30,898 nt of DNA. Origin: a virus. Location of the stretch: IMG/VR virus record IMGVR_UViG_3300020442_003505, positions 1-30,898 of that record; one strand, written 5' to 3'. The position numbers were made by a program, and so were the translations under genes. How positions within the stretch are numbered: position 1 is the stretch's first letter; the number at the start of each line of letters is the position of its first letter. Shown here piece by piece: positions 1,993 through 26,631 of this stretch. The notes beneath the pieces were generated by a model, which was not told where the DNA came from, ran no database searches, and saw only the letters and a list, made by a program, of their open reading frames with translations.

Positions 1993-4509
1993 TTATCCTT
2001 CAAAACTTGCACCAGTTGGTGTAAGATTGAAATCAAGGATAACAAACTCAATTGCTTTTGCAGGTTGCAAGAACACTTGACCATAAAGAATATTTCTGTC
2101 AATAAGATCAGGTGTATTATTTGATTCGTCCATTACGACACGATATGCATACAAACCATTTCTTTGTTGAACACTTTCAAGGTATGGATTTACTATACCG
2201 AGGAAACGATTTCTTGTTGCAGTTACGTTTTGTTCGAATATCAAGAACCTTGCAGTGCTTGCGATAAACTTCTTAAGAGCAATCATCAAACGACGTACAT
2301 TAACCCTATCAAGTGCAGAGGAACGACGTTGTAGTGTTTTTTGACCAAATGCTACAATACCTTGACCAGGAAATGCGGCGATTGGGTTAACTTTACCTTC
2401 GTATAATGTATCTCTTTCCGCAAAGTTAAGACGATCCATAACACCAACTGCTTTCTCGATACCACCACGATTTAAACCGGCAGGAGCAAACCATTCAGCA
2501 GAAACCTTGTCATTTGAAGCATAAACTGCTGGCATAACTGCACTTGGTGGAAACGGCATAATTCTATTTGTTGCAGGATCAATAACTTTCACCCAAGGAT
2601 AGTATGTAGCCGCATAATTTGAATCAAGTGTAGCAACTTGATCAACTGCATCGTCTACTCGTCCTGGTTGATTGTTTGCACCAACCGCATCTAAGATGTA
2701 GAATGTATCTTCACGTGTTTCGCACAAATCGACACCACGATTAATAACATTTCTATGTAGATCAAGTGACAAACCAGGTGTTACAAGAAGATTAATATCA
2801 AATTCATCTTGATTACTGAGGGCAGCGAATGCCTTCTTATACCCCTCTGTTCCCTCTGTGAATGGACCACTACAATCAAGACCTTGTGCATTTGAAGCAG
2901 TAATGTCTGCACCAAGATTAATCGGATGGGTTGGTGATTTTCCATCAAACCCACCTTGGAAACCAACAAGGAATCTTCTCTTACGAACATTATCATAGTC
3001 ACTTGATTCACCTAAGAATGAATCAATTGAAGGTGTTGCGTGTGCAACATTTTCTGCATCTCCGTCTTCAGTTGCGTCTAAACTTGTATATGTACCACCT
3101 TCGTCCATGTAAAAACCCTTACCGGTAGTTCCTGGATTTATTGGAAGTGGTGCAAATAACTCAATGGTGTTACGGGATGATTCGGGAAGACTTAGCAATC
3201 CGTCAGGACTAACTCCATTAAAAACCGTTCCGTTGAAATATCTTCCTGGATTTTTTTCATAATGGGAGGCATAACTCCACTCTGGTGCAGGAACATTAAT
3301 TCCACTTAAAGGTGACGAGTAAGGTGCAAATCCGTAAGGCATTGCGTTTGCAGGAGCAAAAGCATCGGCAGGCATCTCAATGCGAATCCAATTACTTTTA
3401 TTTCCGTAGTCACCGTGTTCAACTATCTTTCCATCGTTATTTGTTTCAACCCATCGGTCTCCAATTACACGTGGTAAATATTGAGGACTTGTTGGGTCGA
3501 GATTTAGATTATCATAATTTTCAAGAACTTCTTGGTTTTTATCATTGTCACCGAATTTTCTTACTATCAAACTGAATGTTCCGTAATCTGTTCCTTGTAA
3601 TGATCCAGGTGTCTTTATGTTATAGATACCAATTTTTATCTCACGATTTGCAAGTGTTCCCATATTACGAGTAACGACTTTAAAAAGATCGTATCTTTGA
3701 CCACTTATTTTCTGTGACTTGATCATCGGTGTATATGCTGAAGATACACCAACATCCGTAAAATCCAACGGACCATCACCAAGTTTGGAAGCATAATCCG
3801 GTGCAGTATTATCAGTTTGGGAAGCATTATTAATTACTTCGGCTATAAGTGAGTAACTCAATCCACCGGGTTGCATGGATTCATGTACCTTTCGTGCAGT
3901 ATCTTCAAAGTAAGAATACAAATATGCTGACTTTGAGTTTTTCTGCGCCGCACGTCCATAGACATTGTGAATACTATCGGGACTTGACGGATCGATTGAA
4001 AATTCGTTATCAATCATTCCGGGACCATCAGGATCATCCAAAGATAATGTTGCCAAATCGTCATTTACATTGATTTCACCATTTAATACAGTTGCATTTG
4101 GAAATCCGTCAAATCTTGCATCCGGATCTTTATCTCTTAAAGTATTTGCTAAAACACCGATTACAAATTCATCTCCTGCTTCAACTGATCCAGATGTTTC
4201 ATTTGCTACTGCTTTTACTATAACAGAGTTTTTCTGCTCATACCCACCAAGTGAACCAACTCTTACGATGGTAACTACACCTTGGTGCTTTAAATATTCT
4301 CGTGCTACCCAAGGTTGATAATACTTTCCGTCAGGAGCACCAAAAAGGTCCTCTAAATCTGCCTGTGATCTTACTACCGTTGGTGCGAATGCCGGACCTC
4401 TATCGAAAGGACCTACAATTGCTCCACCTATCTGGGATATTCCTTGTGCAAGGAAGGATTGATCTACCTCATTGGTAAATACTGCTGGACTTACTACTCG
4501 TTCTGCCAT
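1993..4509 (-). CDS. 18: Tail sheath protein, gp18-like
   Basis: Contractile tail sheath subunit that surrounds the gp19 tube and contracts at infection. The N-terminus (MAERVVSPAVFTNEVDQS, then GGAIVGPFDRGPAF) and C-terminal core (LMIALKKFIASTARFLIFEQ, and the segment ending VILDFNLTPTGASFEG) are diagnostic of myovirus sheath proteins. At 838 residues it is much longer than T4 gp18 (659), so the variable outer domains in the middle (about residues 100-550) are expanded. The ATG at 4509 has an AGGAG Shine-Dalgarno 11 bases upstream and a roughly 65-base leader from a late-promoter motif at 4579-4587. A strong terminator follows. The family is secure; the role of the extra middle sequence is unknown. 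Confidence 0.95.
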   Translation of the reverse strand: MAERVVSPAVFTNEVDQSFLAQGISQIGGAIVGPFDRGPAFAPTVVRSQADLEDLFGAPDGKYYQPWVAREYLKHQGVVTIVRVGSLGGYEQKNSVIVKAVANETSGSVEAGDEFVIGVLANTLRDKDPDARFDGFPNATVLNGEINVNDDLATLSLDDPDGPGMIDNEFSIDPSSPDSIHNVYGRAAQKNSKSAYLYSYFEDTARKVHESMQPGGLSYSLIAEVINNASQTDNTAPDYASKLGDGPLDFTDVGVSSAYTPMIKSQKISGQRYDLFKVVTRNMGTLANREIKIGIYNIKTPGSLQGTDYGTFSLIVRKFGDNDKNQEVLENYDNLNLDPTSPQYLPRVIGDRWVETNNDGKIVEHGDYGNKSNWIRIEMPADAFAPANAMPYGFAPYSSPLSGINVPAPEWSYASHYEKNPGRYFNGTVFNGVSPDGLLSLPESSRNTIELFAPLPINPGTTGKGFYMDEGGTYTSLDATEDGDAENVAHATPSIDSFLGESSDYDNVRKRRFLVGFQGGFDGKSPTHPINLGADITASNAQGLDCSGPFTEGTEGYKKAFAALSNQDEFDINLLVTPGLSLDLHRNVINRGVDLCETREDTFYILDAVGANNQPGRVDDAVDQVATLDSNYAATYYPWVKVIDPATNRIMPFPPSAVMPAVYASNDKVSAEWFAPAGLNRGGIEKAVGVMDRLNFAERDTLYEGKVNPIAAFPGQGIVAFGQKTLQRRSSALDRVNVRRLMIALKKFIASTARFLIFEQNVTATRNRFLGIVNPYLESVQQRNGLYAYRVVMDESNNTPDLIDRNILYGQVFLQPAKAIEFVILDFNLTPTGASFEG

Positions 4510-12651: not shown

Positions 12652-13102
12652 TTGTAATTTCTCCTTTAATTTCAAAATATCTATTTAGAATATTCCCCAT
12701 ATCTTCATACAAACTTTGCATTCTTTGTGTGTATACTTGTCGTTCTTTTGCAGTTTTGTAAAAATCTTTTGCAAGAGTTTTTATTTCTTTTAAGTTGCGT
12801 TTAACACTTATTGAGTCAAACCAATCGTCAGTTTCGTTTAAAATACACTGAGATGCGTTTTCTACTATATTGCAGATATCTTCCGCGACATCCATATCCT
12901 TTGCTTCTAATGCAATAAATTTTTGGTATTTACCAAATTTTGAAATTTTTTCAGATGCAAGTCTTTTTTGTTCTGTTGATAAACCCTCGTCAGAAAATCT
13001 ATCTGTTTCAGGATTATATTCATTAAGCAATTTTTTTTCTTCTTTTAAAACTTCAAGAATCACTTCTTTTATTGCTTTTTTTACATCAGTATCTTTGCTC
13101 AT
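12638..13102 (-). CDS. Hypothetical helical protein following prohead protease
   Basis: Unrecognised 154-residue, strongly helical, charged protein. It begins MSKDTDVKKAIKEVILEVLK, another amphipathic N-terminal helix, followed by KKLLNEYNPETDRFSDEGLS and a C-terminal helix bundle. It overlaps the gp21 stop by four bases (ATGA) and has GGAGAG upstream, so it is translationally coupled to the protease. T4 keeps small core proteins gp67 and gp68 next to gp21, which makes a prohead core role plausible by analogy; no sequence match to them is claimed. Confidence 0.78.
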   Translation of the reverse strand: MSKDTDVKKAIKEVILEVLKEEKKLLNEYNPETDRFSDEGLSTEQKRLASEKISKFGKYQKFIALEAKDMDVAEDICNIVENASQCILNETDDWFDSISVKRNLKEIKTLAKDFYKTAKERQVYTQRMQSLYEDMGNILNRYFEIKGEITNEPQ

Positions 13103-13731
13103 TTTTGCTCTCCGATTTCTCCTAAGATTTCATGTATGATTCCTTCAACCTTACAATACTTGGTACATACACGACCACTTGTTACTACTTTAGAATCAGA
13201 TGATACAGACTCATTTAAATTTACTGGTTCAAGGAAAGCACCCCGTGTTGATGGATTGCTTACAAAATCAAATGCAACTAATTCAAAATCATCATTAACA
13301 AGAGTTTTACCTTCATGTTCACGGGTTGTTCCCATGCCACGTGAACTAATTCCGAGTGTGATGCCACTTTTAAATAGTTCTTTTAAAATATTTCCAGAAG
13401 GTGTACTAAGAACTTCAACCTTGCCTAACAGATTATCACCTTCCCACCACATTTTTGTAACATTGTGACTTACATTTTGTAAATTGACAACACTACTTTC
13501 TGGATGATCTAATTCACCTAAAGCTCTTCTATCACTTATTAACTCGTTGTACTTAGTTGCTTCTCTTTCAAGCAATGATCGTTCGTATACACGACCATTT
13601 TGATTTTGCTCTGACGCCTTTTGTAAAATACCTTGAACAATTAGACGTCCTGAATTTTGTTCTATACTTTCACTTATCTGCTCAGGAGTGAATTCAAACG
13701 GCATTGTAGTAACTAGTAATTTCTTTCCCAT
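13099..13731 (-). CDS. 21: Prohead core protease, gp21-like
   Basis: Serine protease that cuts the scaffold, capsid and internal proteins after head assembly, with the usual specificity for [IL]xE before a small residue. At 210 residues it matches T4 gp21 (212). The family motifs are clear: GRLIVQGILQKASEQNQNGR (28-47), GELDHP with catalytic His76, and GITLGISSRGMG with Ser129/Ser130 in the active-site position. The segment FELVAFDFVSNPSTRGAFLE near residues 170-190 is typical of the family. The ATG at 13731 lacks a Shine-Dalgarno sequence; a weak promoter-like TATACTTAT lies eight bases upstream. It is followed by an overlapping gene. Confidence 0.95.
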   Translation of the reverse strand: MGKKLLVTTMPFEFTPEQISESIEQNSGRLIVQGILQKASEQNQNGRVYERSLLEREATKYNELISDRRALGELDHPESSVVNLQNVSHNVTKMWWEGDNLLGKVEVLSTPSGNILKELFKSGITLGISSRGMGTTREHEGKTLVNDDFELVAFDFVSNPSTRGAFLEPVNLNESVSSDSKVVTSGRVCTKYCKVEGIIHEILGEIGEQK

Positions 13732-18608: not shown

Positions 18609-20210
18609 CTATTGTAATAACCAATCTAGGCTTTCCGTTCCACCATGTGGATTTTTCATTTCATAAGGATTTGTTTTTAAACCTGATTTAGCAAAGTTTT
18701 CACCAACATTTAAATTTGTCGTACTTCCCATATAATCAAACAATGATTTTTGAGATTGAACATTTTCAGACCTGAATCTTAGTGCAGTATCACGAACCCA
18801 CAATGAAATACACAAACTCATAACCAAGTCATCGTTGTAACCTTGCATTGCTTCTGCTTTTTGACCGTTCCAAACAAATGTAAATAATTCATCAAGTGTT
18901 CTTTCAGATTGTATTTCTACTTCTTTTTCACGCACATAACTTTCCATTTTACTTATGATAAGAGGGCGAGTTTTAATAGATGTAGTAAATCCAGGAACTT
19001 GTTTTTTCTCCATTCTATTTATTTTGTTGGTGTGTTGTGAAAATTCATCTATATATTGGTAATCTCTTTGTGTGTAATATAAATTATTGTATCCTTTATC
19101 AATAATTTGTTGTAATACTGCCCAACCGATATTTGCATTTTCCACGACCAATAGTGCTCCATTAAACTCACTTGCAACTGCTACTAATAAATTACCAAAG
19201 TCTTTTGTTTCTACTTCACCTTTAAATTCAGCAACTTGTTTAACATTTTCTACATCAAATACATGAAATGCACTTTTGTCTCTTCCATCACCTCGGGCAA
19301 CATCGGCCGCAACTACATAATCTTTATTATGGTTTGGATATTCCCATATCCAATATTCCTTGTTTGCACCTCGCTTTTCAACAGGTTCTTTCATCATCGT
19401 GTTTTTATACCACTCAATTAAACTTGCATCTACAACCGAACGACCACTGCTGATAAAGTCGCAATCACATTCTTGTGCGGCTTCTTTCTCACCAAGAACC
19501 TTAGTTTGCAAATCTCTCCATTCTTGCCCACGATCAGGATGTAAATTCCAATGAAGTTTTATTGGATTAAAGTCATTTGATCCATCCATAGATCCAACCC
19601 AAGTTTTGTGGAAAAAGTTACCGATACCATTTGGAGTTGATAATAGAATAGAACGACCACCAGTTGTAATTGTAGATTGTGATGCAGTCCATATATCTTC
19701 CATGTTTGTAATAAACGCACACTCGTCCACGATAAGTAAACTCAGAGAGGATGAACGAGAAGCATCTACACTACTAGAGGCTGCACGAATATTACTTCCA
19801 TTTTTGAAACGCATACTCAGTTTGTTTTTTTCCGTACACTCACTTCGTAACCAACTTGGCAAATGCTCTGACATATGGGTTACTTTGGTAACAATATTTT
19901 TTGCAGTCTCTTGGTTAATTGCAATACACAATATAGATTTATCTGTGAAAAAAGTCATTAACCACAAGGCATAACCTGAAACAAGTGTAGATATACCCAT
20001 TTGTCTTGCTTTTAATACAATATTAAATTGTTCGTCACGAAAACTTTCCAATGTCTTAGTTTGGAAGTCGTATAAAGCAAACGGAATTGTTCCGAGTGTT
20101 GGGTGTTGAATCTTGCAATACTTTTTCATAAAGTATGCAGGTGATTTTAAACACTCAGTATATTCTTGTTTTATTATTTCCCTTAATGGAATTTTTTCAT
20201 TGCCTGCCAT
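18609..20210 (-). CDS. 17: Terminase large subunit, gp17-like
   Basis: The ATP-driven DNA packaging motor and headful nuclease. The ATPase domain has the deviant Walker A LKARQMGIST (Lys67, lysine displaced to the front as in many terminases) and Walker B LLIVDECAFI (Asp162, Glu163), with the coupling motif near ILLSTPNGIGNFF (about 188-200). The RNase H-like nuclease has acidic residues at YVVAADVARGDG (Asp303), LLVVENAN (Glu357) and YNDDLVMSL (Asp460/461). At 533 residues it is a little shorter than T4 gp17 (610). The ATG at 20210 is six bases from a late-promoter motif and has no Shine-Dalgarno sequence. It follows a terminator and starts a unit with the lipoprotein and perhaps the portal. 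Confidence 0.96.
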   Translation of the reverse strand: MAGNEKIPLREIIKQEYTECLKSPAYFMKKYCKIQHPTLGTIPFALYDFQTKTLESFRDEQFNIVLKARQMGISTLVSGYALWLMTFFTDKSILCIAINQETAKNIVTKVTHMSEHLPSWLRSECTEKNKLSMRFKNGSNIRAASSSVDASRSSSLSLLIVDECAFITNMEDIWTASQSTITTGGRSILLSTPNGIGNFFHKTWVGSMDGSNDFNPIKLHWNLHPDRGQEWRDLQTKVLGEKEAAQECDCDFISSGRSVVDASLIEWYKNTMMKEPVEKRGANKEYWIWEYPNHNKDYVVAADVARGDGRDKSAFHVFDVENVKQVAEFKGEVETKDFGNLLVAVASEFNGALLVVENANIGWAVLQQIIDKGYNNLYYTQRDYQYIDEFSQHTNKINRMEKKQVPGFTTSIKTRPLIISKMESYVREKEVEIQSERTLDELFTFVWNGQKAEAMQGYNDDLVMSLCISLWVRDTALRFRSENVQSQKSLFDYMGSTTNLNVGENFAKSGLKTNPYEMKNPHGGTESLDWLLQ

Positions 20211-20249: not shown

Positions 20250-20280
20250 TAAAAAGTTTCAGCGTATCGTTGAAACTTTT
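20250..20280 (-). terminator. Rho-independent terminator before terminase gene
   Basis: Stem AAGTTTCA / TGAAACTT with an inner loop around ACGATACGC, followed on the minus strand by TTTTTAAATT. Its 5' edge overlaps the stop codon of the gene ending at 20279. It closes the accessory operon. Confidence 0.82.
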
Positions 20281-20905
20281 AAAAAGTAATGTCAGCATAC
20301 TCTTGTAGATTTTCTTCAACTTCTTTTAAACGAGTTTCAAGTTCTTCTAAATCCTTTTCTAAATCTTCCATTACTTGATCTTTATTTGGAATGTTCCATT
20401 GTTCAAGTGAACCATCTTCATTTAAAAATTTTGGATCATTTGTAATATGCTCTCTTGATTCCACTAACTTTGTTTTGGTATCTAATAAAAAACTAAGTTC
20501 ATTTTCAAGCATAGTCTTTTTTTCATATGCTTCGTATTTACCTTCATCTTTTAATTTTTGCTCAAATTCTTGTACGCAATCAAAACACATACCTTTCATA
20601 GCAAGCATTCTTTTATCTAAATATTTTGTAGGATCAACCGTACACATTTTCTTTGGGCAATTTGGTGCTTCACGCAAACTCTTTCTAACTTTATCCATAA
20701 GAGTTTCAGTTCTCACCTTTGAATTAGTGCCTACCTGCTTCCACTCTTTTCCGTCTTTATCTGTCCAAACTTCTCCAGGTTGACGAATTACCAAGTCTTC
20801 AACTTCTCCTTCGTAACCATGTACTTTTGGAAGTTCTTCTCCTTGGAATAACTTACGTGATCGTTTGATCACATACTTTAAATCATCTTTATCCATTTTA
20901 GCCAT
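20279..20905 (-). CDS. Hypothetical Cys4 and coiled-coil protein upstream of terminase
   Basis: Unrecognised 208-residue protein. Four cysteines (Cys83, Cys88, Cys107, Cys110; NCPKKMC then GMCFDC) could bind one zinc ion. Residues about 115-203 form a long charged helix pair (EDLEKDLEELETRLKEVEEN), a probable coiled coil. The N-terminal part has a GEVWTDKDGKEWKQVG strand pair. It is directly upstream of gp17, where T4 has the small terminase gp16, and a coiled-coil DNA-binding protein would fit that role, but I see no sequence match to gp16. The ATG at 20905 lacks a Shine-Dalgarno sequence. A terminator overlaps its stop. Confidence 0.75.
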   Translation of the reverse strand: MAKMDKDDLKYVIKRSRKLFQGEELPKVHGYEGEVEDLVIRQPGEVWTDKDGKEWKQVGTNSKVRTETLMDKVRKSLREAPNCPKKMCTVDPTKYLDKRMLAMKGMCFDCVQEFEQKLKDEGKYEAYEKKTMLENELSFLLDTKTKLVESREHITNDPKFLNEDGSLEQWNIPNKDQVMEDLEKDLEELETRLKEVEENLQEYADITF

Positions 20906-20944: not shown

Positions 20945-21346
20945 TTATGATAAGCTTTTAAATCTGCTTATACACACTTCCAAAAAAACATTTATTAAAA
21001 AGTTTTCGTACAATAATCTTTTCTTTTTTCTCTCTGAATCAGTAAGATCATATTGCATGAAAAAAAGATGATTATCACATGAACTTTTCTCACGGAATCG
21101 TTCCATTGTTTTTTTAATTATTAATTTTACACAAGCATGAAGTTCTCCGTATCCATAAAGGTAGTTCATTGATAAAATTAAATTGTGTGATTCTTCATGA
21201 ATCTTTTCAACAAACTCACGATCCATATACTTTACACTGTTAGGAACAGCCTTACGATGGGATGTATGAAAAAGTTTTTTTACATATTCAATCTCTTTTT
21301 CTACTTCTTCTATTTTTAAATAAACATTTCCGTTAAGTTTAATCAT
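20945..21346 (-). CDS. Hypothetical protein, 133 aa
   Basis: Unrecognised, mostly helical protein with a basic and aromatic-rich C-terminal half (SERKKKRLLYENFLINVFLE). I place the start at the ATG at 21346 (MIKLNGNVYLKIEEVEKEIE), which overlaps the preceding stop by eight bases and has AAAAGG upstream; the frame stays open to 21376 but that would overlap more. It contains HTSHRKAVPNSVKYMDREFV and a segment with two tyrosines near MNYLYGYGELHAC. No known domain is recognised. It is part of the accessory operon running from the kinase to the Cys4 protein. Confidence 0.7.
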   Translation of the reverse strand: MIKLNGNVYLKIEEVEKEIEYVKKLFHTSHRKAVPNSVKYMDREFVEKIHEESHNLILSMNYLYGYGELHACVKLIIKKTMERFREKSSCDNHLFFMQYDLTDSERKKKRLLYENFLINVFLEVCISRFKSLS

Positions 21347-22187
21347 ACTTGCCTTTTCTGAGTTCTTTCCGATCATATGCTTTTTTGTTTTTCATCGGAC
21401 GACTTTTTGGCAGTGTTGGTTTTCTAACTTTTTTATATGCATCCATGCGTGTCATTAACTTTTGCTTTTTGGACTCTGACAACTTTTGTATTTTATGAAC
21501 CAACATCTTTATATATTCTTTTTTACTACCACGACCTTTAAAATACGGACTTTTATCACTTAGCATTTTTGCAACATCAAGGATTGCTTTTAAATCTTTT
21601 AAATTCTCTTCTTTTTCTTTGTCTTCCATCATATTGTTTTCTCCGATTGGTCCATCAATTTTTGTAAACTCTACATAATAGTTACCATCTTGATCTTGTA
21701 TTATTTTACCACCAACTTTTTTTGAATGTTTTTTTGCATCTTCTTTACTATCAAAACGAAGTGGTTCTACATTTCCATTTTTGTTGATACCAGAAATATT
21801 CATTTCACCACCATCTATATGATGTTTGCTTATCGTAAATTGCTCATCAGTTTTTTGTCTTATTCGTTTAAGTCTTTCTTTTTCTTTTGCTCTCACCTTC
21901 GGAAGCAACTTCTTTGCAACTTTCGCAATAATTGCAGGTTTCAATTTATTATCAATAGTTTGTTTTTGACTAATACTTAAATCAGAATAAGATTTACCAC
22001 CAGTTAACTTTTTTACCAACACAGTTTTTGCAGCTTTCTTTGCAGTATTTCTTAACTTTTCAGGTGACTTTGGTCGTTTTGCTAAAAGTTTCTTTTTAAG
22101 TTGTCGTTTTTTTGCAGTTCGTTTAGCAGCCCTTGCCATTTTTCGTCTAGATGCAATTGACAATCTCTTTTCCTGTTGATGTTCCAT
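21339..22187 (-). CDS. Very basic two-part protein, probable nucleic-acid binder
   Basis: A 282-residue protein with an extremely Lys/Arg-rich N-terminal part (residues 1-120; for example KMARAAKRTAKKRQLKKKLL and KVRAKEKERLKRIRQK), a small mixed middle domain (about 130-185, DGNYYVEFTKIDGPIGENNM) and a basic C-terminal tail. The N-terminal pattern, including LTGGKSYSDLSISQKQTID, recurs as far as I recall in uncharacterised proteins of marine T4-like phages. The ATG at 22187 follows the stop of the NMNAT-ligase gene by one base, with ATGAGG as ribosome site, so the two are translationally coupled. DNA or RNA binding, perhaps helping the upstream ligase, is an inference from charge and context. 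Confidence 0.75.
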   Translation of the reverse strand: MEHQQEKRLSIASRRKMARAAKRTAKKRQLKKKLLAKRPKSPEKLRNTAKKAAKTVLVKKLTGGKSYSDLSISQKQTIDNKLKPAIIAKVAKKLLPKVRAKEKERLKRIRQKTDEQFTISKHHIDGGEMNISGINKNGNVEPLRFDSKEDAKKHSKKVGGKIIQDQDGNYYVEFTKIDGPIGENNMMEDKEKEENLKDLKAILDVAKMLSDKSPYFKGRGSKKEYIKMLVHKIQKLSESKKQKLMTRMDAYKKVRKPTLPKSRPMKNKKAYDRKELRKGKYD

Positions 22188-22188
22188 G

Positions 22189-24705
22189 CTAAAACCTCAT
22201 TATTCCCATAATTTGATTTATAGGAGCAAATGTACCTGTGAGTTTATATGTTCCTCCTTTATACTGAAATACTACTCCTTCGGTTGGTGCTATTGCTTTG
22301 CTTCCACCAATAGCATTAAGACGATTAAGATTTTTATTAAGTTTTTCCATGTCTTTCTTGAACTTATCTGGTGATTCTACCGAACCAATCTTTTTTGATT
22401 CTAATGTTTTAACATGAGCATCAAGTGCTTTTGCAATATCGTCACTTCCACCGGCTGCAACAAATCCTTTTACATTTTGTAGAACTTCTGCACCTAATTT
22501 CAAAAAGATGAATTGAAATGGCCACATATTTTCTTCAAATTGTTTTACAAGATTTTCTTTATCAAATTTATTTACCCACTCTTTTAACTTAGGTTGCTTT
22601 TCTAAATCCATACGGATTGTAGTTATTTTATTTGATTTATCGTTGTATGCCCAACGACGTATAAGTGCTTCAAACACTTTCGGTGGAAATGTTTCTTTTG
22701 ATTTTCTTTGTTGCTTGTTTAATAAATCTCTCCACCACGCATCGTGATACTTCATTACTTTATCGTTATCTTTTAATTTAAATTTCTTTTTTAGTTTGTC
22801 AAGCATTGCAGAATATTTTGCGAATGAATCACCAAAATTTTTACTTTTAGGTAGTTCCACTACAATCGGTGCGTTTAGTGAATATCTTTTTTGCACATCT
22901 GCATTTACTTGCTTTAACATACCTTTAAGCATTCTAGCAGAGTCTTTAAGTTCACTTGTTATATCGTTTCCATCAGAATCTACACTTACTGCTTTACCCG
23001 CAGAATCGTATGCTTGTGTTCCGTGAAATACCAACATATCTACATTTTGAGGAATGACATTTTGTGTAGCAGGTGTCATTACCTCAATATTCATAAAACG
23101 TTCACCTTCTTTGAATACTTTGTTTCGTTGCTTTTCACTTAACTTGGATATAGCAGATTCCAAATCAGTAACTGCACCAACAAACGCATCACGTATATTT
23201 TCAGGACGATCAGCAAATATGCTTTCAAATTCTTTTACATTAGGTGCAGCCGCACCTGCGTTTTTTAAATGACCTTGATTTCTTGCCGCTACTAATTGAC
23301 CCTCTTTCCAAGAAAACATTAAATTTTGACCATCAAGTTTTTCAGTAACTTCTTTTTCTACATTTAATTCACCTGCAAGTGATCTACGAATCATTTCTTT
23401 TAAATCAGAGAAAGTTAAATCACGATCATCAAATGGATGACTCATATGTCCAGCTGCACCTCCTTCTGTTAGCAACTCTTCGTTAATAGCATGACCCTCT
23501 ACTCCTTTGTCTATTTCATCACCATCCTCTGCTTTGCTTGTATCAATAGTATTTCCTGATTTCAAATCTTCATCACCTTGTTCGTCCTTTTTACGAACAG
23601 ATTTTTCAGAACCAAGAAAATCTACAAGTTTATATCCAGCAGTTTCCGCAACCCCATTAATAAACCCAACCCATTGTTCATGTGCAGTTTTAGATGCTTC
23701 AGTATCAATTTGATTCATTGGTGTTTGTGCATCTATATCACCAGCAGGATAGAAACTGACTGCTGGTACAGGACCTGCATACTTACCCCATTCACGATAA
23801 TCTGCATTTCTACCAAGTCCATTTTTACCGACTACATAATCTAGTAAATCATATCCAAGTTGCTCTGCTCTTTTGTTAGTGTAACCTTCGTAAGACTTTC
23901 CAGGATAAAACATACTAGGTCCATCGTCTACAAATGGAAGACCTTGACTTGCAATTGAACTTATCTCACTTAATAAGTTTGGAATGTTATTTACAAATTT
24001 ATTAAAATTAGGATATTCATTTAAAAAATTTTCAAACAGTTCTTCGTTCTCAAACAATGTAGAAAACTTCTTTGTAAGATACTGAAATATCTTTTCGTCA
24101 TACCAACCAAACAATTCTTCAAATGCTTGTGTTTTGGTCATTTTGTCGTGTTTAGGAGATCCAAGTAAATCTCTAATTCTTGTACCACTTACTTCTTTAC
24201 CAAGCACCTTAATGCTTACATGGGGAGCAACTATAAAATATCCATGTTCTGCAAATGGTTTTAAATTATTTTTGTTTTTATCATATGACTGATAATACGC
24301 AGGAGAACCATCTGCTTTTGTTGTTTTCAATCTACCTGCATCTTTTTCTCCGAAAATGTAAACAACCGCAGTTGTGTTTGGATCATATTTTTTTAATAGT
24401 TCTTCGCATACATATGGATTTTTTACTTTGACAACATTTCTAACTCCGTGCTTTGTCCATATCATTTTTTTCTCTTTGAAATTCAATGGACTTTTTGTAG
24501 AATCAGTTTTATCACTTGTAGCAACCCATGCTTCGTTAAACTTTCCGTCTAACCATTTGTATGTCTTATAATGATGAATACCAGCAGGTTGAAATCTACC
24601 AGGATAAATTCCGATTACCTTTTTTATTTTTGCTTCTTGAAGAATATCGTCAACGATATATGTCGTTAAATCCTCAGAAAGCAATTCTGATATTTTTGTG
24701 TTCAT
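22189..24705 (-). CDS. Fusion of NMNAT-like nucleotidylyltransferase and nucleic-acid-ligase-like domain
   Basis: An 838-residue two-enzyme fusion. Residues 28-200 are a HIGH-superfamily nucleotidylyltransferase, closest in style to NMN adenylyltransferases: GIYPGRFQP (32-40) and VSGTRIR (172-178). The usual HxGH is altered to G-I-H-H (42-45). Residues about 425-838 resemble a covalent nucleotidyltransferase (ligase/capping) fold: motif I EKLDGQN with Lys456, Arg475, motif III FMNIEVMTP (Glu541), motif IV TEGVVFQYKG (Glu809) and a motif V-like TYKLTG (Lys821), with about 260 residues inserted between III and IV. The N-terminal MNTKISELLSED resembles the gp23 N-terminus (MSEISKLLSES), and gp21-like sites LQE|A (24/25) and LTE|G (414/415) flank the first domain. 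It follows a P-loop kinase in the same operon. Substrates are unknown; NAD or RNA/DNA end metabolism is inferred. Confidence 0.8.
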   Translation of the reverse strand: MNTKISELLSEDLTTYIVDDILQEAKIKKVIGIYPGRFQPAGIHHYKTYKWLDGKFNEAWVATSDKTDSTKSPLNFKEKKMIWTKHGVRNVVKVKNPYVCEELLKKYDPNTTAVVYIFGEKDAGRLKTTKADGSPAYYQSYDKNKNNLKPFAEHGYFIVAPHVSIKVLGKEVSGTRIRDLLGSPKHDKMTKTQAFEELFGWYDEKIFQYLTKKFSTLFENEELFENFLNEYPNFNKFVNNIPNLLSEISSIASQGLPFVDDGPSMFYPGKSYEGYTNKRAEQLGYDLLDYVVGKNGLGRNADYREWGKYAGPVPAVSFYPAGDIDAQTPMNQIDTEASKTAHEQWVGFINGVAETAGYKLVDFLGSEKSVRKKDEQGDEDLKSGNTIDTSKAEDGDEIDKGVEGHAINEELLTEGGAAGHMSHPFDDRDLTFSDLKEMIRRSLAGELNVEKEVTEKLDGQNLMFSWKEGQLVAARNQGHLKNAGAAAPNVKEFESIFADRPENIRDAFVGAVTDLESAISKLSEKQRNKVFKEGERFMNIEVMTPATQNVIPQNVDMLVFHGTQAYDSAGKAVSVDSDGNDITSELKDSARMLKGMLKQVNADVQKRYSLNAPIVVELPKSKNFGDSFAKYSAMLDKLKKKFKLKDNDKVMKYHDAWWRDLLNKQQRKSKETFPPKVFEALIRRWAYNDKSNKITTIRMDLEKQPKLKEWVNKFDKENLVKQFEENMWPFQFIFLKLGAEVLQNVKGFVAAGGSDDIAKALDAHVKTLESKKIGSVESPDKFKKDMEKLNKNLNRLNAIGGSKAIAPTEGVVFQYKGGTYKLTGTFAPINQIMGIMRF

Positions 24706-25236
24706 TTATTTATTGAGTAATTCTGATAAAATTGTGCGAATTTGTTTGCGAAGTTTTTGCTCATAAACTCTGCGTTGAACAAATCTGTTGAATTCTCCTT
24801 TAGACATTTTTGATATTTCATCTGCCATCTCGTCAAATCCTTTTCTTTGTAGAAATGCAATAACCTTATCCTTTGCCTTCAGAATACTTGAGTGTAAACT
24901 TGACATAAAATTTATTGCCTTTTTATACTCATCACTTGTAATTTTTATTTCGTTTGTTGTTTCTTTCATTTTTGATTCCTCGTATTGAGACATATAAAAA
25001 TCTTCATCAGAAGCAGCTGACTCAAAATCTCTCCATGCTTGCTCTGCTTCTTTTCCCACCATTATTATTTTTCCTTTAGGATAATAAAGTATTTCATCAC
25101 CCTTCTTAAACTTAACACCACCTTTACGAAGTCTCCTTTGCACAGGCAATCTTTGCTCACCCGAAACACCATCATATTTAGACTTCATCCAAAATGGATC
25201 ATCTTTATATCTTTTGTATTCTTTTAAGTTGTTCAT
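24706..25236 (-). CDS. Hypothetical protein, 176 aa
   Basis: Unrecognised protein with an N-terminal region of beta character (KKGDEILYYPKGKIIMVG), a middle acidic stretch, and a helical C-terminal half ending EQKLRKQIRTILSELLNK, which repeats the LRxxIRxxLxE pattern seen at the N-termini of head-cluster proteins. The start is the ATG at 25236, one base after the TGA of the preceding gene; the alternative TTG at 25257 would overlap. Its TAA directly abuts the ATG of the NMNAT-ligase gene, so translation of the two is likely coupled and they may act together. Confidence 0.72.
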   Translation of the reverse strand: MNNLKEYKRYKDDPFWMKSKYDGVSGEQRLPVQRRLRKGGVKFKKGDEILYYPKGKIIMVGKEAEQAWRDFESAASDEDFYMSQYEESKMKETTNEIKITSDEYKKAINFMSSLHSSILKAKDKVIAFLQRKGFDEMADEISKMSKGEFNRFVQRRVYEQKLRKQIRTILSELLNK

Positions 25237-25237
25237 A

Positions 25238-25588
25238 TCAATCTTCAAAGTATTCAACTACTTTACCTGTTTTAATGTGTGTTTTGCAAGCCTTCTTTTT
25301 ATCACGATGCATATGTGGTGCTTTTGACAAATACTCATTTGTGCAATGAAAAATATATCCATCTACAATAGGTCCTTCAGATGACTCACCTTCACTAAAG
25401 ACACCAATAAACTTATAGTCATCTTTTTCTTTTTGAGTCAATTTATTTGCCACCGACTTTGCCCAATTTTCATTTCCACTTTTTTTTGACGAAAAACTAT
25501 ATCGTGCATGATTAGGTGCAAGTTCCACTTTCCAAGTTTCACCCAACTTATCTTCACGAATCAACTCATCAAAAATATTATCAAACAT
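25238..25588 (-). CDS. Hypothetical protein, 116 aa
   Basis: Unrecognised small protein with mixed composition. It has a strand-rich middle (FIGVFSEGESSEGPIVDGYI) and a His/Cys/Lys-rich end (PHMHRDKKKACKTHIKTGKV) that could bind metal or nucleic acid, though no standard motif is present. The ATG at 25588 overlaps the stop of the kinase gene by one base (TAATG) and has GGAG upstream, so it is translationally coupled to the kinase. Confidence 0.72.
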   Translation of the reverse strand: MFDNIFDELIREDKLGETWKVELAPNHARYSFSSKKSGNENWAKSVANKLTQKEKDDYKFIGVFSEGESSEGPIVDGYIFHCTNEYLSKAPHMHRDKKKACKTHIKTGKVVEYFED

Positions 25589-26631
25589 TACTTTTCTCCT
25601 TTGAACTTTAATGTTCTTATTTTGTGAAAATACTTGTTTACTTGATTACGATCAAGTTCAAGACTTTCCACTAATCTAGATAAAACTGCCAAATTTCTTC
25701 GTTCATTTAAATTAAATTTTTTAATAACATAAATAGAGCGACTTAGATGCCTTTCTAAATCCATAGGCAAAACTACATCTTCCATTTCAATCATATCCAA
25801 GTCTTCAGTAACACGATTTCGTTTATCACCACTTTTACTCATTTTGTCGTGTGCCATCATCATTTTAATCCACTTCTTTCCAATTGGATTACGAACTGGT
25901 TTGGAGATGAATCTTGCAACTTCTTTCATTAACCGTGGAACTAAATCAAGTTTACCTGGTTTCGTTTTACTGCGAGTATCTTCTGAATTGTCTACAATCA
26001 CAAAATTGCTTTTAAATAATCCTTGAAATTTGCCAAGATTTTTTTGCACATCTGTCCAAATATCTTTTACTATTTTACGTGGAAGTTTTCTTGCTCGTAA
26101 TGCGTTTCTTTCTTGTGCCACATCAAGTGTTGTGTTTACAAACACCATATAGCAATCGTATCCTAACTTTTCAAGTTCTTTCTTTTGCTTTGATATTTTA
26201 TCGTAGTTATCACCAGTTCCATCAACGATTACACCCAAACGACCATCTTTAAACAACTCGAATTGTTTAAGCATGATTTTCTTCGCACGTGAACGAATAC
26301 TGTTTGGATCATCACTCGTTACTTTGGCAAATGTTTTGTCATCCATTTTAGATAAGTTCAAGTCATAGCCTGCTTTTTTAAGTAATATTTCAAAAGCAGG
26401 ATCACTATTAACAATCTTTAATCCACTTGGTGAAAGATTCGCTGCACTCGGAGGGAAATCAAATAATGTGTTAACTGTAGCAGATTTACCTGATCCAGGA
26501 CCACCTGCTAAAAATACGGCTTTCAAAATACCAGGATCATATACTCCTTCTACGAGTGTAAAGTATCCTTTACGCAATCCTGCTTTAATAAGAGTTTCTT
26601 CTTGTGTTTGTTTTTCTTCGGAATTTTCCAT
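25588..26631 (-). CDS. P-loop kinase, zeta-toxin / polynucleotide-kinase-like
   Basis: A 347-residue phosphotransferase-type ATPase. The Walker A GGPGSGKSA (43-51) is followed by KIVNSDPAFE (72-81), the position where such kinases carry a substrate-binding Asp, then GVIVDGTGDNYDKI (about 135-148), and a likely lid with several Arg residues (ERNALRARKLPRK). This layout fits the group that includes zeta toxins and the T4 polynucleotide kinase domain. Residues 230-347 are an extra, basic helical domain. No phosphatase domain is seen. The ATG at 26631 is 20 bases from a late-promoter motif with no strong ribosome site. It is the first gene of the operon that contains the ligase-like fusion, so nucleic-acid 5'-end phosphorylation is plausible; small-molecule or protein substrates cannot be excluded. 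Confidence 0.8.
   Translation of the reverse strand: MENSEEKQTQEETLIKAGLRKGYFTLVEGVYDPGILKAVFLAGGPGSGKSATVNTLFDFPPSAANLSPSGLKIVNSDPAFEILLKKAGYDLNLSKMDDKTFAKVTSDDPNSIRSRAKKIMLKQFELFKDGRLGVIVDGTGDNYDKISKQKKELEKLGYDCYMVFVNTTLDVAQERNALRARKLPRKIVKDIWTDVQKNLGKFQGLFKSNFVIVDNSEDTRSKTKPGKLDLVPRLMKEVARFISKPVRNPIGKKWIKMMMAHDKMSKSGDKRNRVTEDLDMIEMEDVVLPMDLERHLSRSIYVIKKFNLNERRNLAVLSRLVESLELDRNQVNKYFHKIRTLKFKGEK

Follow-up and report, generated by a model that had tools for sequence, protein, structure and literature searches.

A putative head polyprotein of T4-like phages joins NMNAT-type and RNA-ligase-type domains and may be processed by the prohead protease

The DNA analysed here (hereafter the window) comprises 30.9 kb of a viral contig. 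It contains, on the minus strand, an 838-aa ORF with an ATG start and without internal stops, in which an NMNAT-type domain and a ligase-type domain are separated by a conserved middle region. Genes for the large terminase, the portal, a gp21-type prohead protease, a T4-type major capsid protein and the tail sheath lie downstream on the same strand, and these neighbours identify the window as the head region of a T4-like phage. Two small genes lie upstream, as do the genes for a Zeta/AAA_33-type kinase and an SbcC-like protein. The relevant features are as follows (a slash marks the junction before the ligase).

22189..24705 (-), 838-aa ORF: NMNAT-type domain, middle region and ligase-type domain; putative processed head polyprotein
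24625..24705 (-), N-terminal segment, aa 1-27, with three [LI]xE motifs (ISE, LSE, LQE)
24058..24624 (-), NMNAT/PPAT-fold nucleotidyltransferase domain, aa 28-216 (structure match and sequence matches of relatives)
24571..24600 (-), GRFQPAGIHH, aa 36-45 (H44/H45), the GxHH variant of HxGH
24172..24189 (-), SGTRIR motif, aa 173-178
23965..24057 (-), linker, aa 217-247, with four [LI]xE motifs (LFE, LFE, LNE, LSE)
23590..23919 (-), conserved middle region, aa 263-372 (DDGP...)
23458..23475 (-), junction LLTE/GG, aa 411-416, an LxE site before the ligase domain; in some relatives an internal start (Met behind a ribosome-binding site) is found here
22192..23463 (-), RNA-ligase-like covalent nucleotidyltransferase domain, aa 415-838, whose motifs III and IV flank a large helical insert (structure model)
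23329..23340 (-), motif I, KLDG, with the candidate nucleotidyl-lysine K456
22270..22281 (-), motif IV, EGVV, aa 809-812 (E809)
22234..22248 (-), motif V, YKLTG, aa 820-824 (K821 and T823 invariant)
25588..26631 (-), Zeta/AAA_33-type P-loop kinase, 347 aa (Zeta_toxin E 1.2e-11; phrog_12810 E 7.2e-41)
25238..25588 (-), 116-aa protein, member of the same tightly packed gene run
24706..25236 (-), protein of about 176 aa, ATG at 25236, its stop adjoining the ATG of the 838-aa ORF
18609..20210 (-), large terminase, head-gene context
13099..13731 (-), T4 gp21-type prohead protease (Peptidase_S77, E 1.4e-28), the proposed processing enzyme

The 176-aa gene and the ORF are separated by one in-frame stop, but the two genes occupy different frames in most close relatives, which speaks against readthrough, and this reading was dropped. 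Another ORF of likewise 838 aa (1993-4509) is the tail sheath and is unrelated. Directly after the ORF, a 282-aa protein (21339-22187, minus strand) has a very lysine-rich N-terminal half and is possibly another internal head protein, and before the terminase a 208-aa protein (20279-20905, minus strand) carries a CxxC...CxxC-type zinc motif, with a same-strand homologue in 87 of 96 loci.

Structural comparison of aa 28-216 with the PDB returned the HIGH-superfamily nucleotidyltransferase fold, the best match being the nicotinate-nucleotide adenylyltransferase NadD (5vir; Z 11.6, 152 residues, rmsd 2.9), followed by archaeal NMNAT (1f9a; Z 11.0) with PPAT close behind. Given this near tie of NMNAT and PPAT, the fold leaves the choice of substrate to either type. 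Ten residues (R37, Q39, P40, H45, G119, K121, D122, G174, T175, and R178) are invariant in 120 aligned relatives, and these include the glycine, threonine and arginine of an ISGTxIR-type phosphate-binding motif (G174, T175, R178 in 120/120). The canonical NMNAT signature is HxGH; GxHH is found in the window and its clade, and the relatives divide into 90 with GxHH and 30 with HxGH, the second histidine being invariant. Searches of PDB sequences with the intact-HxGH relatives recovered archaeal NMNAT (E 2.5e-5 to 3.9e-5), CTP_transf_like lies above its Pfam cut-off in several relatives (E 0.03, below cut-off, in the window protein), and, outside the family, the annotated phage proteins nearest to it include a Vibrio phage NadM. 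Judging by fold and nearest relatives, we predict that this domain makes NAD from NMN and ATP.

The ligase-type part (aa 415-838), modelled alone, gave a pLDDT of 85.6 and a pTM of 0.83. Its fold matches are modest (Z about 8), with ATP-dependent RNA ligases ranking first, i.e., Naegleria Rnl (Z 8.2), T4 Rnl1 (8.1), T4 Rnl2 (7.5), and Trl1 (7.1). All 50 PDB matches listed are ligases or capping enzymes, i.e., covalent nucleotidyltransferases; LigA was not among these 50 but may nevertheless be related. A profile search of the same part against PDB sequences gave chance matches only, and the DNA_ligase_aden profile stayed below its Pfam cut-off both in the window protein (E 0.0066; 16.4 bits against a cut-off of 27) and in the relatives, two of which weakly match RNA_ligase instead (E 0.022 and 0.027). 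Across 155-157 ligase domains E455, K456, D458, G459, R475, N476, E541, E809, G810, K821, and T823 are invariant, so that nucleotidyltransferase motifs I, III, IV, and V are each represented by an unvarying residue (K456xDG, E541, E809, and K821). Motif V of the superfamily is usually KxK; the second lysine was not found here, and K821-x-T823 (KxT) occurs in 157/157. A family-specific C-terminal domain after motif V is also absent, as the protein ends 14 residues past it. From sequence and model, the domain thus appears to resemble an RNA ligase in its core, yet to lack two features of the known RNA-ligase families, and it may well use ATP and act on RNA.

A sequence-only reading of this DNA had placed NMNAT-like and ligase-like folds in one polypeptide. 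This is borne out, since all the motifs were found in the ORF, the invariance of their residues across aligned relatives argues against chance occurrence, and structure models support each part, including a nucleotidyltransferase fold for the C-terminal one.

Relatives are encoded in at least 581 confirmed viral stretches recovered by alignment search, mostly from marine T4-like phages, and close relatives of the ORF number in the dozens; for one single-copy query (L002), no further viral loci were found. In an annotated phage collection the family was found in only three records, Microcystis phage Mel-JY01, a cultured member of the family on which our literature search found no paper, and two huge uncultured phages. 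Many members are longer mosaics (up to 2463 aa) that include a P-loop kinase, a CCA-adding enzyme, an HD domain and other regions. The Zeta/AAA_33-type kinase, a separate gene in the window, is fused upstream of the NMNAT domain in relatives, and the PolyA_pol/CCA domain is clearly recognizable in three polyproteins (E 5.5e-31 in L186, 1.5e-29 in L187, and 6.8e-30 in L073); no CCA enzyme was found in the long records of the window's own clade, and no NAPRTase in its near relatives. The HD domain was dismissed as a common partner, a wide seed having matched linkers and a narrow one leaving five clear cases. Domain order is shuffled (NMNAT-ligase, NMNAT-insert-ligase, ligase-NMNAT in L188, and adjacent genes in L003), and still the NMNAT and ligase pair stays together, as in LR756500, where the NMNAT-type domain lies in the gene next to a ligase-only gene.

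Several regions of these mosaics deserve separate mention. The gene after the ligase-only form in L003 (7268-9226) encodes 653 aa with a C-terminal NMNAT-type domain (GRFQPFTLGH), and its N-terminal part may hold another nucleotidyltransferase. In the 1909-aa polyprotein of L187 (829-6552), the region between the CCA enzyme and NMNAT (about aa 739-1028) has no Pfam or PHROG matches and bears, by eye, a faint resemblance to ADP-ribosyltransferases. Ahead of the ligase and behind the NMNAT part, L152 (4344-9272, aa 880-1232) and L186 (1896-9284, aa 1416-2040) have inserts that resemble each other in their motifs and lack profile matches, and the LR756508 protein (L002, 5587-8331) carries an additional ParB_N-like domain at its N-terminus (E 4.4e-4, below cut-off). 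The contigs filed as bacterial or archaeal (L189, L187-L192) are probably phage contigs binned with cells, some having a terminase and portal beside the gene.

The setting among head genes is widely conserved. Of the 96 loci with enough sequence, 94 have the large terminase on the same strand and no more than 6 kb downstream. Peptidase_S77 was above cut-off in all 15 records tested and in none of 14 control genomes, and a T4-type capsid protein was present in 13 of 14 records. The protease of this type in T4, gp21, cleaves after L/I-X-E (PMC9026906). In an alignment of 74 members, the linkers (6117 residues) contain 332 [LI]xE motifs and the domains (49130 residues) 128, i.e., 5.43 vs 0.26 per 100 residues (20.8x), a contrast that depends on zones whose borders were drawn by hand after viewing the sequences. 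The ratio is 15.3x in eight representatives below 55% identity, and control motifs give ratios of 0.6-3.7x for all members and 0.7-2.7x for these eight. Composition-keeping shuffles of the latter predict 17.0 +/- 3.7 linker sites and 34.4 +/- 4.9 domain sites, where 36 and 16, respectively, are seen, and [LI]xD, [LI]xK, and [VMF]xE show no such domain deficit. For the window protein alone, Fisher's test gives P 2e-6. With hand-set zones and related sequences, we regard these statistics as strong but exploratory. The sites thus sit at the ends of the putative mature parts, with some departures from the pattern: kinase regions show no depletion, with 183 sites against 138 expected, and [LI]xE also lies inside the ligase domain of several distant relatives (Mel-JY01, LR756508, and L190). 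The first 27 residues, which carry three of these motifs, resemble the beginning of the major capsid protein (MSEISKLLSE) and may have a capsid-targeting role.

At the junction before the ligase, most members have [LI]xE/GG, kept even in Mel-JY01, LR756500, L188, and L190 (LR756508 is without a junction site), and others have LLLM/GG. The methionine form was found in 39 distinct ORFs behind a strong ribosome-binding site, AAGGAG or GGGAG standing at the appropriate distance in 39/39, with the intervening leucine codons varying. At other K/R-E pairs of the same ORFs, GGAG was present in 2 of 323 cases. We rely on this codon comparison because a looser GGAG count is inflated by GGA-GCN codons, which explain its many matches at GGxxGHM. 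No internal start with a ribosome-binding site was seen at the NMNAT border in 60 fused proteins. In a FastTree phylogeny of the ligase domain, which contains long branches, the junction state changed 10 times, at least seven of these changes being forced by well-supported branches. An N-terminal methionine before glycine is normally removed, so the protease and internal-start routes would both yield a ligase starting with GG, and the recurrent swap between them suggests that the ligase is released as a protein of its own. This is the observation hardest to explain otherwise.

We therefore lean, with little more than even confidence, towards a mosaic polyprotein that is packaged in the head, processed by the gp21-type protease and delivers enzymes for RNA-end repair and NAD synthesis. 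The chain would be made late, together with the head genes, and carried into the prohead by its short N-terminal targeting segment, where the prohead protease would cut at the [LI]xE sites in the linkers. Cleavage would free the NMNAT-type and RNA-ligase-type enzymes and, in other members, the P-loop kinase, CCA-adding enzyme, HD domain and further parts, with internal initiation serving in part as an alternative to the protease. The freed enzymes may then accompany the DNA out of the head and act immediately on reaching the new host, most likely undoing damage inflicted by host defence: kinase, CCA enzyme and ligase could mend cleaved tRNA or other RNA ends, and the NMNAT-type enzyme could remake NAD from NMN and ATP. 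The RNA-repair reading follows from the ligase fold and the fused CCA enzyme and kinase; the latter resembles zeta toxin as much as polynucleotide kinase. The fuller picture of an injected, ready-made repair kit, i.e., one chain released within the head by the prohead protease, or for the ligase of some lineages through an internal ribosome-binding site at the same residue, we put forward tentatively, with somewhat less than even confidence. If it holds, the enzymes for RNA repair and NAD synthesis would arrive preformed, and the phage could oppose defences that cut tRNA or deplete NAD even before expressing any gene. Lineages that exchange protease site and internal start at a single residue also provide a clean natural experiment on the release of polyprotein parts, and the cultured Mel-JY01 makes the proposal testable.

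The sequence-only reading had envisaged something different, namely a bifunctional enzyme in which the NMN released by NAD-dependent ligation is converted to NAD again by the attached NMNAT. Both folds do share one ORF, their association survives domain shuffling, and DNA_ligase_aden, although below cut-off, is the best Pfam match of the window's ligase half. However, NAD-dependent ligases require an Ia domain, and its absence, already suspected in that reading, is confirmed by the 421-aa ligase-only homologue (L003/L185, LR756500), which starts 18 residues before the GG..GH block and thus leaves no space for one. With ATP-dependent RNA ligases heading the structural matches, two relatives weakly matching RNA_ligase instead, and a protease-type site or an internal ribosome-binding site and ATG between the halves, which makes it probable that the two enzymes do not work as one polypeptide, self-recycling is extremely improbable, and the chain is instead probably cleaved by the head protease that the phage itself encodes and enters the cell along with the DNA. 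The hedge attached to the idea, that the ligase may use ATP and act on RNA ends, fares better than NAD-dependent sealing. It is rather unlikely that the domain is no ligase at all, i.e., another covalent nucleotidyltransferase of RNA capping-like or protein-modifying type: motif V with its universal KxT ends the domain with nothing after it, and capping enzymes also appear among the structural matches, but RNA ligases outrank them and the fusion partners are RNA-processing domains. For the NMNAT-type domain, another enzyme of the same fold, e.g., a Namat-like nicotinamide-ADP-ribose transferase or a PPAT-like adenylyltransferase, is somewhat unlikely. It is favoured by the tie of NMNAT and PPAT, by the prevalence of GxHH over HxGH (90/120), and by the existence of a phage enzyme with a function in the same area, Namat in the NARP1 pathway (PMC12774641); archaeal NMNAT and phage NadM, the annotated sequences closest to the intact-HxGH relatives, speak for NMNAT.

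The whole protein could also be an ordinary intracellular fusion for RNA repair and NAD supply, neither cut nor packaged, with the terminase neighbourhood and the [LI]xE motifs as by-products of late expression and helical linkers. Leucine and glutamate are abundant in linkers, the motif is not purged from kinase regions, and packaging is deduced here from sequence. Against this, the linker excess and domain deficit persist in the eight representatives when composition is kept by shuffling, the control motifs [LI]xD, [LI]xK, and [VMF]xE lack the deficit, and a swap that recurs at one position is difficult to account for in a protein whose halves remain joined, so we judge a purely intracellular role rather unlikely and retain the processed head polyprotein as our working proposal.

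The content of known head-packaged effectors (T4 Alt and polyvalent proteins) is usually host-modifying or DNA-protecting. Polyvalent proteins (Iyer et al. 2017) are many-domain phage chains of mosaic order with predicted injection along with the DNA, and our family resembles them in each of these respects as far as the covered sections of that paper describe them (PMC5512222). RNA ligases are mentioned in those sections only as not associating with 2H domains, and the set of NMNAT, CCA enzyme and ligase, prohead-protease sites between domains or an internal start at a junction were not found there. Phage RNA-repair sets, e.g., T4 Pnkp/Rnl1 and the ligases, kinases and CCA enzymes of jumbo phages, likewise bring kinase, CCA enzyme and ligase together, but the sections covered describe them as separate genes (PMC7824862), unlike the fused forms seen here, which neighbour the terminase and are connected with an NMNAT-type domain. 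Phage NAD synthesis is represented by NadM/NadR/NadV (PMC7824862, PMC9503650, in the parts covered) and by Namat of NARP1 (PMC12774641); the HIGH-superfamily adenylyltransferase domain is common to NadM, NadR, Namat and the present family, which lacks the Nudix or kinase fusion of the NadM/NadR type. The covered parts of the two surveys (PMC7824862, PMC9503650) do not describe the domain set, the inter-domain protease sites or the internal-start alternative, and our literature search found no paper on packaged RNA ligases. With NAD-dependent DNA ligase LigA the ligase-type domain shares the KxDG nucleotidyltransferase core, and it differs in having no Ia domain before this core and no OB, zinc, HhH or BRCT parts after it. 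Injected multi-domain proteins and T4 Alt are thus known kinds, and it is the RNA-repair/NAD set, the protease sites between domains and the internal-start alternative that appear undescribed in the literature as covered here. The closest parallel is with T4 itself, whose Alt and internal proteins IPI-III are head-packaged proteins that gp21 cleaves after L/I-X-E and that are ejected with the DNA (PMC9026906): the genomes of the present family share with it the T4-type protease and capsid protein, the short [LI]xE-bearing N-terminal segment and the location among head genes, whereas the packaged enzyme of T4 is a single ADP-ribosyltransferase and here several unrelated enzymes, of RNA-repair and NAD-synthesis types, are joined in one chain.
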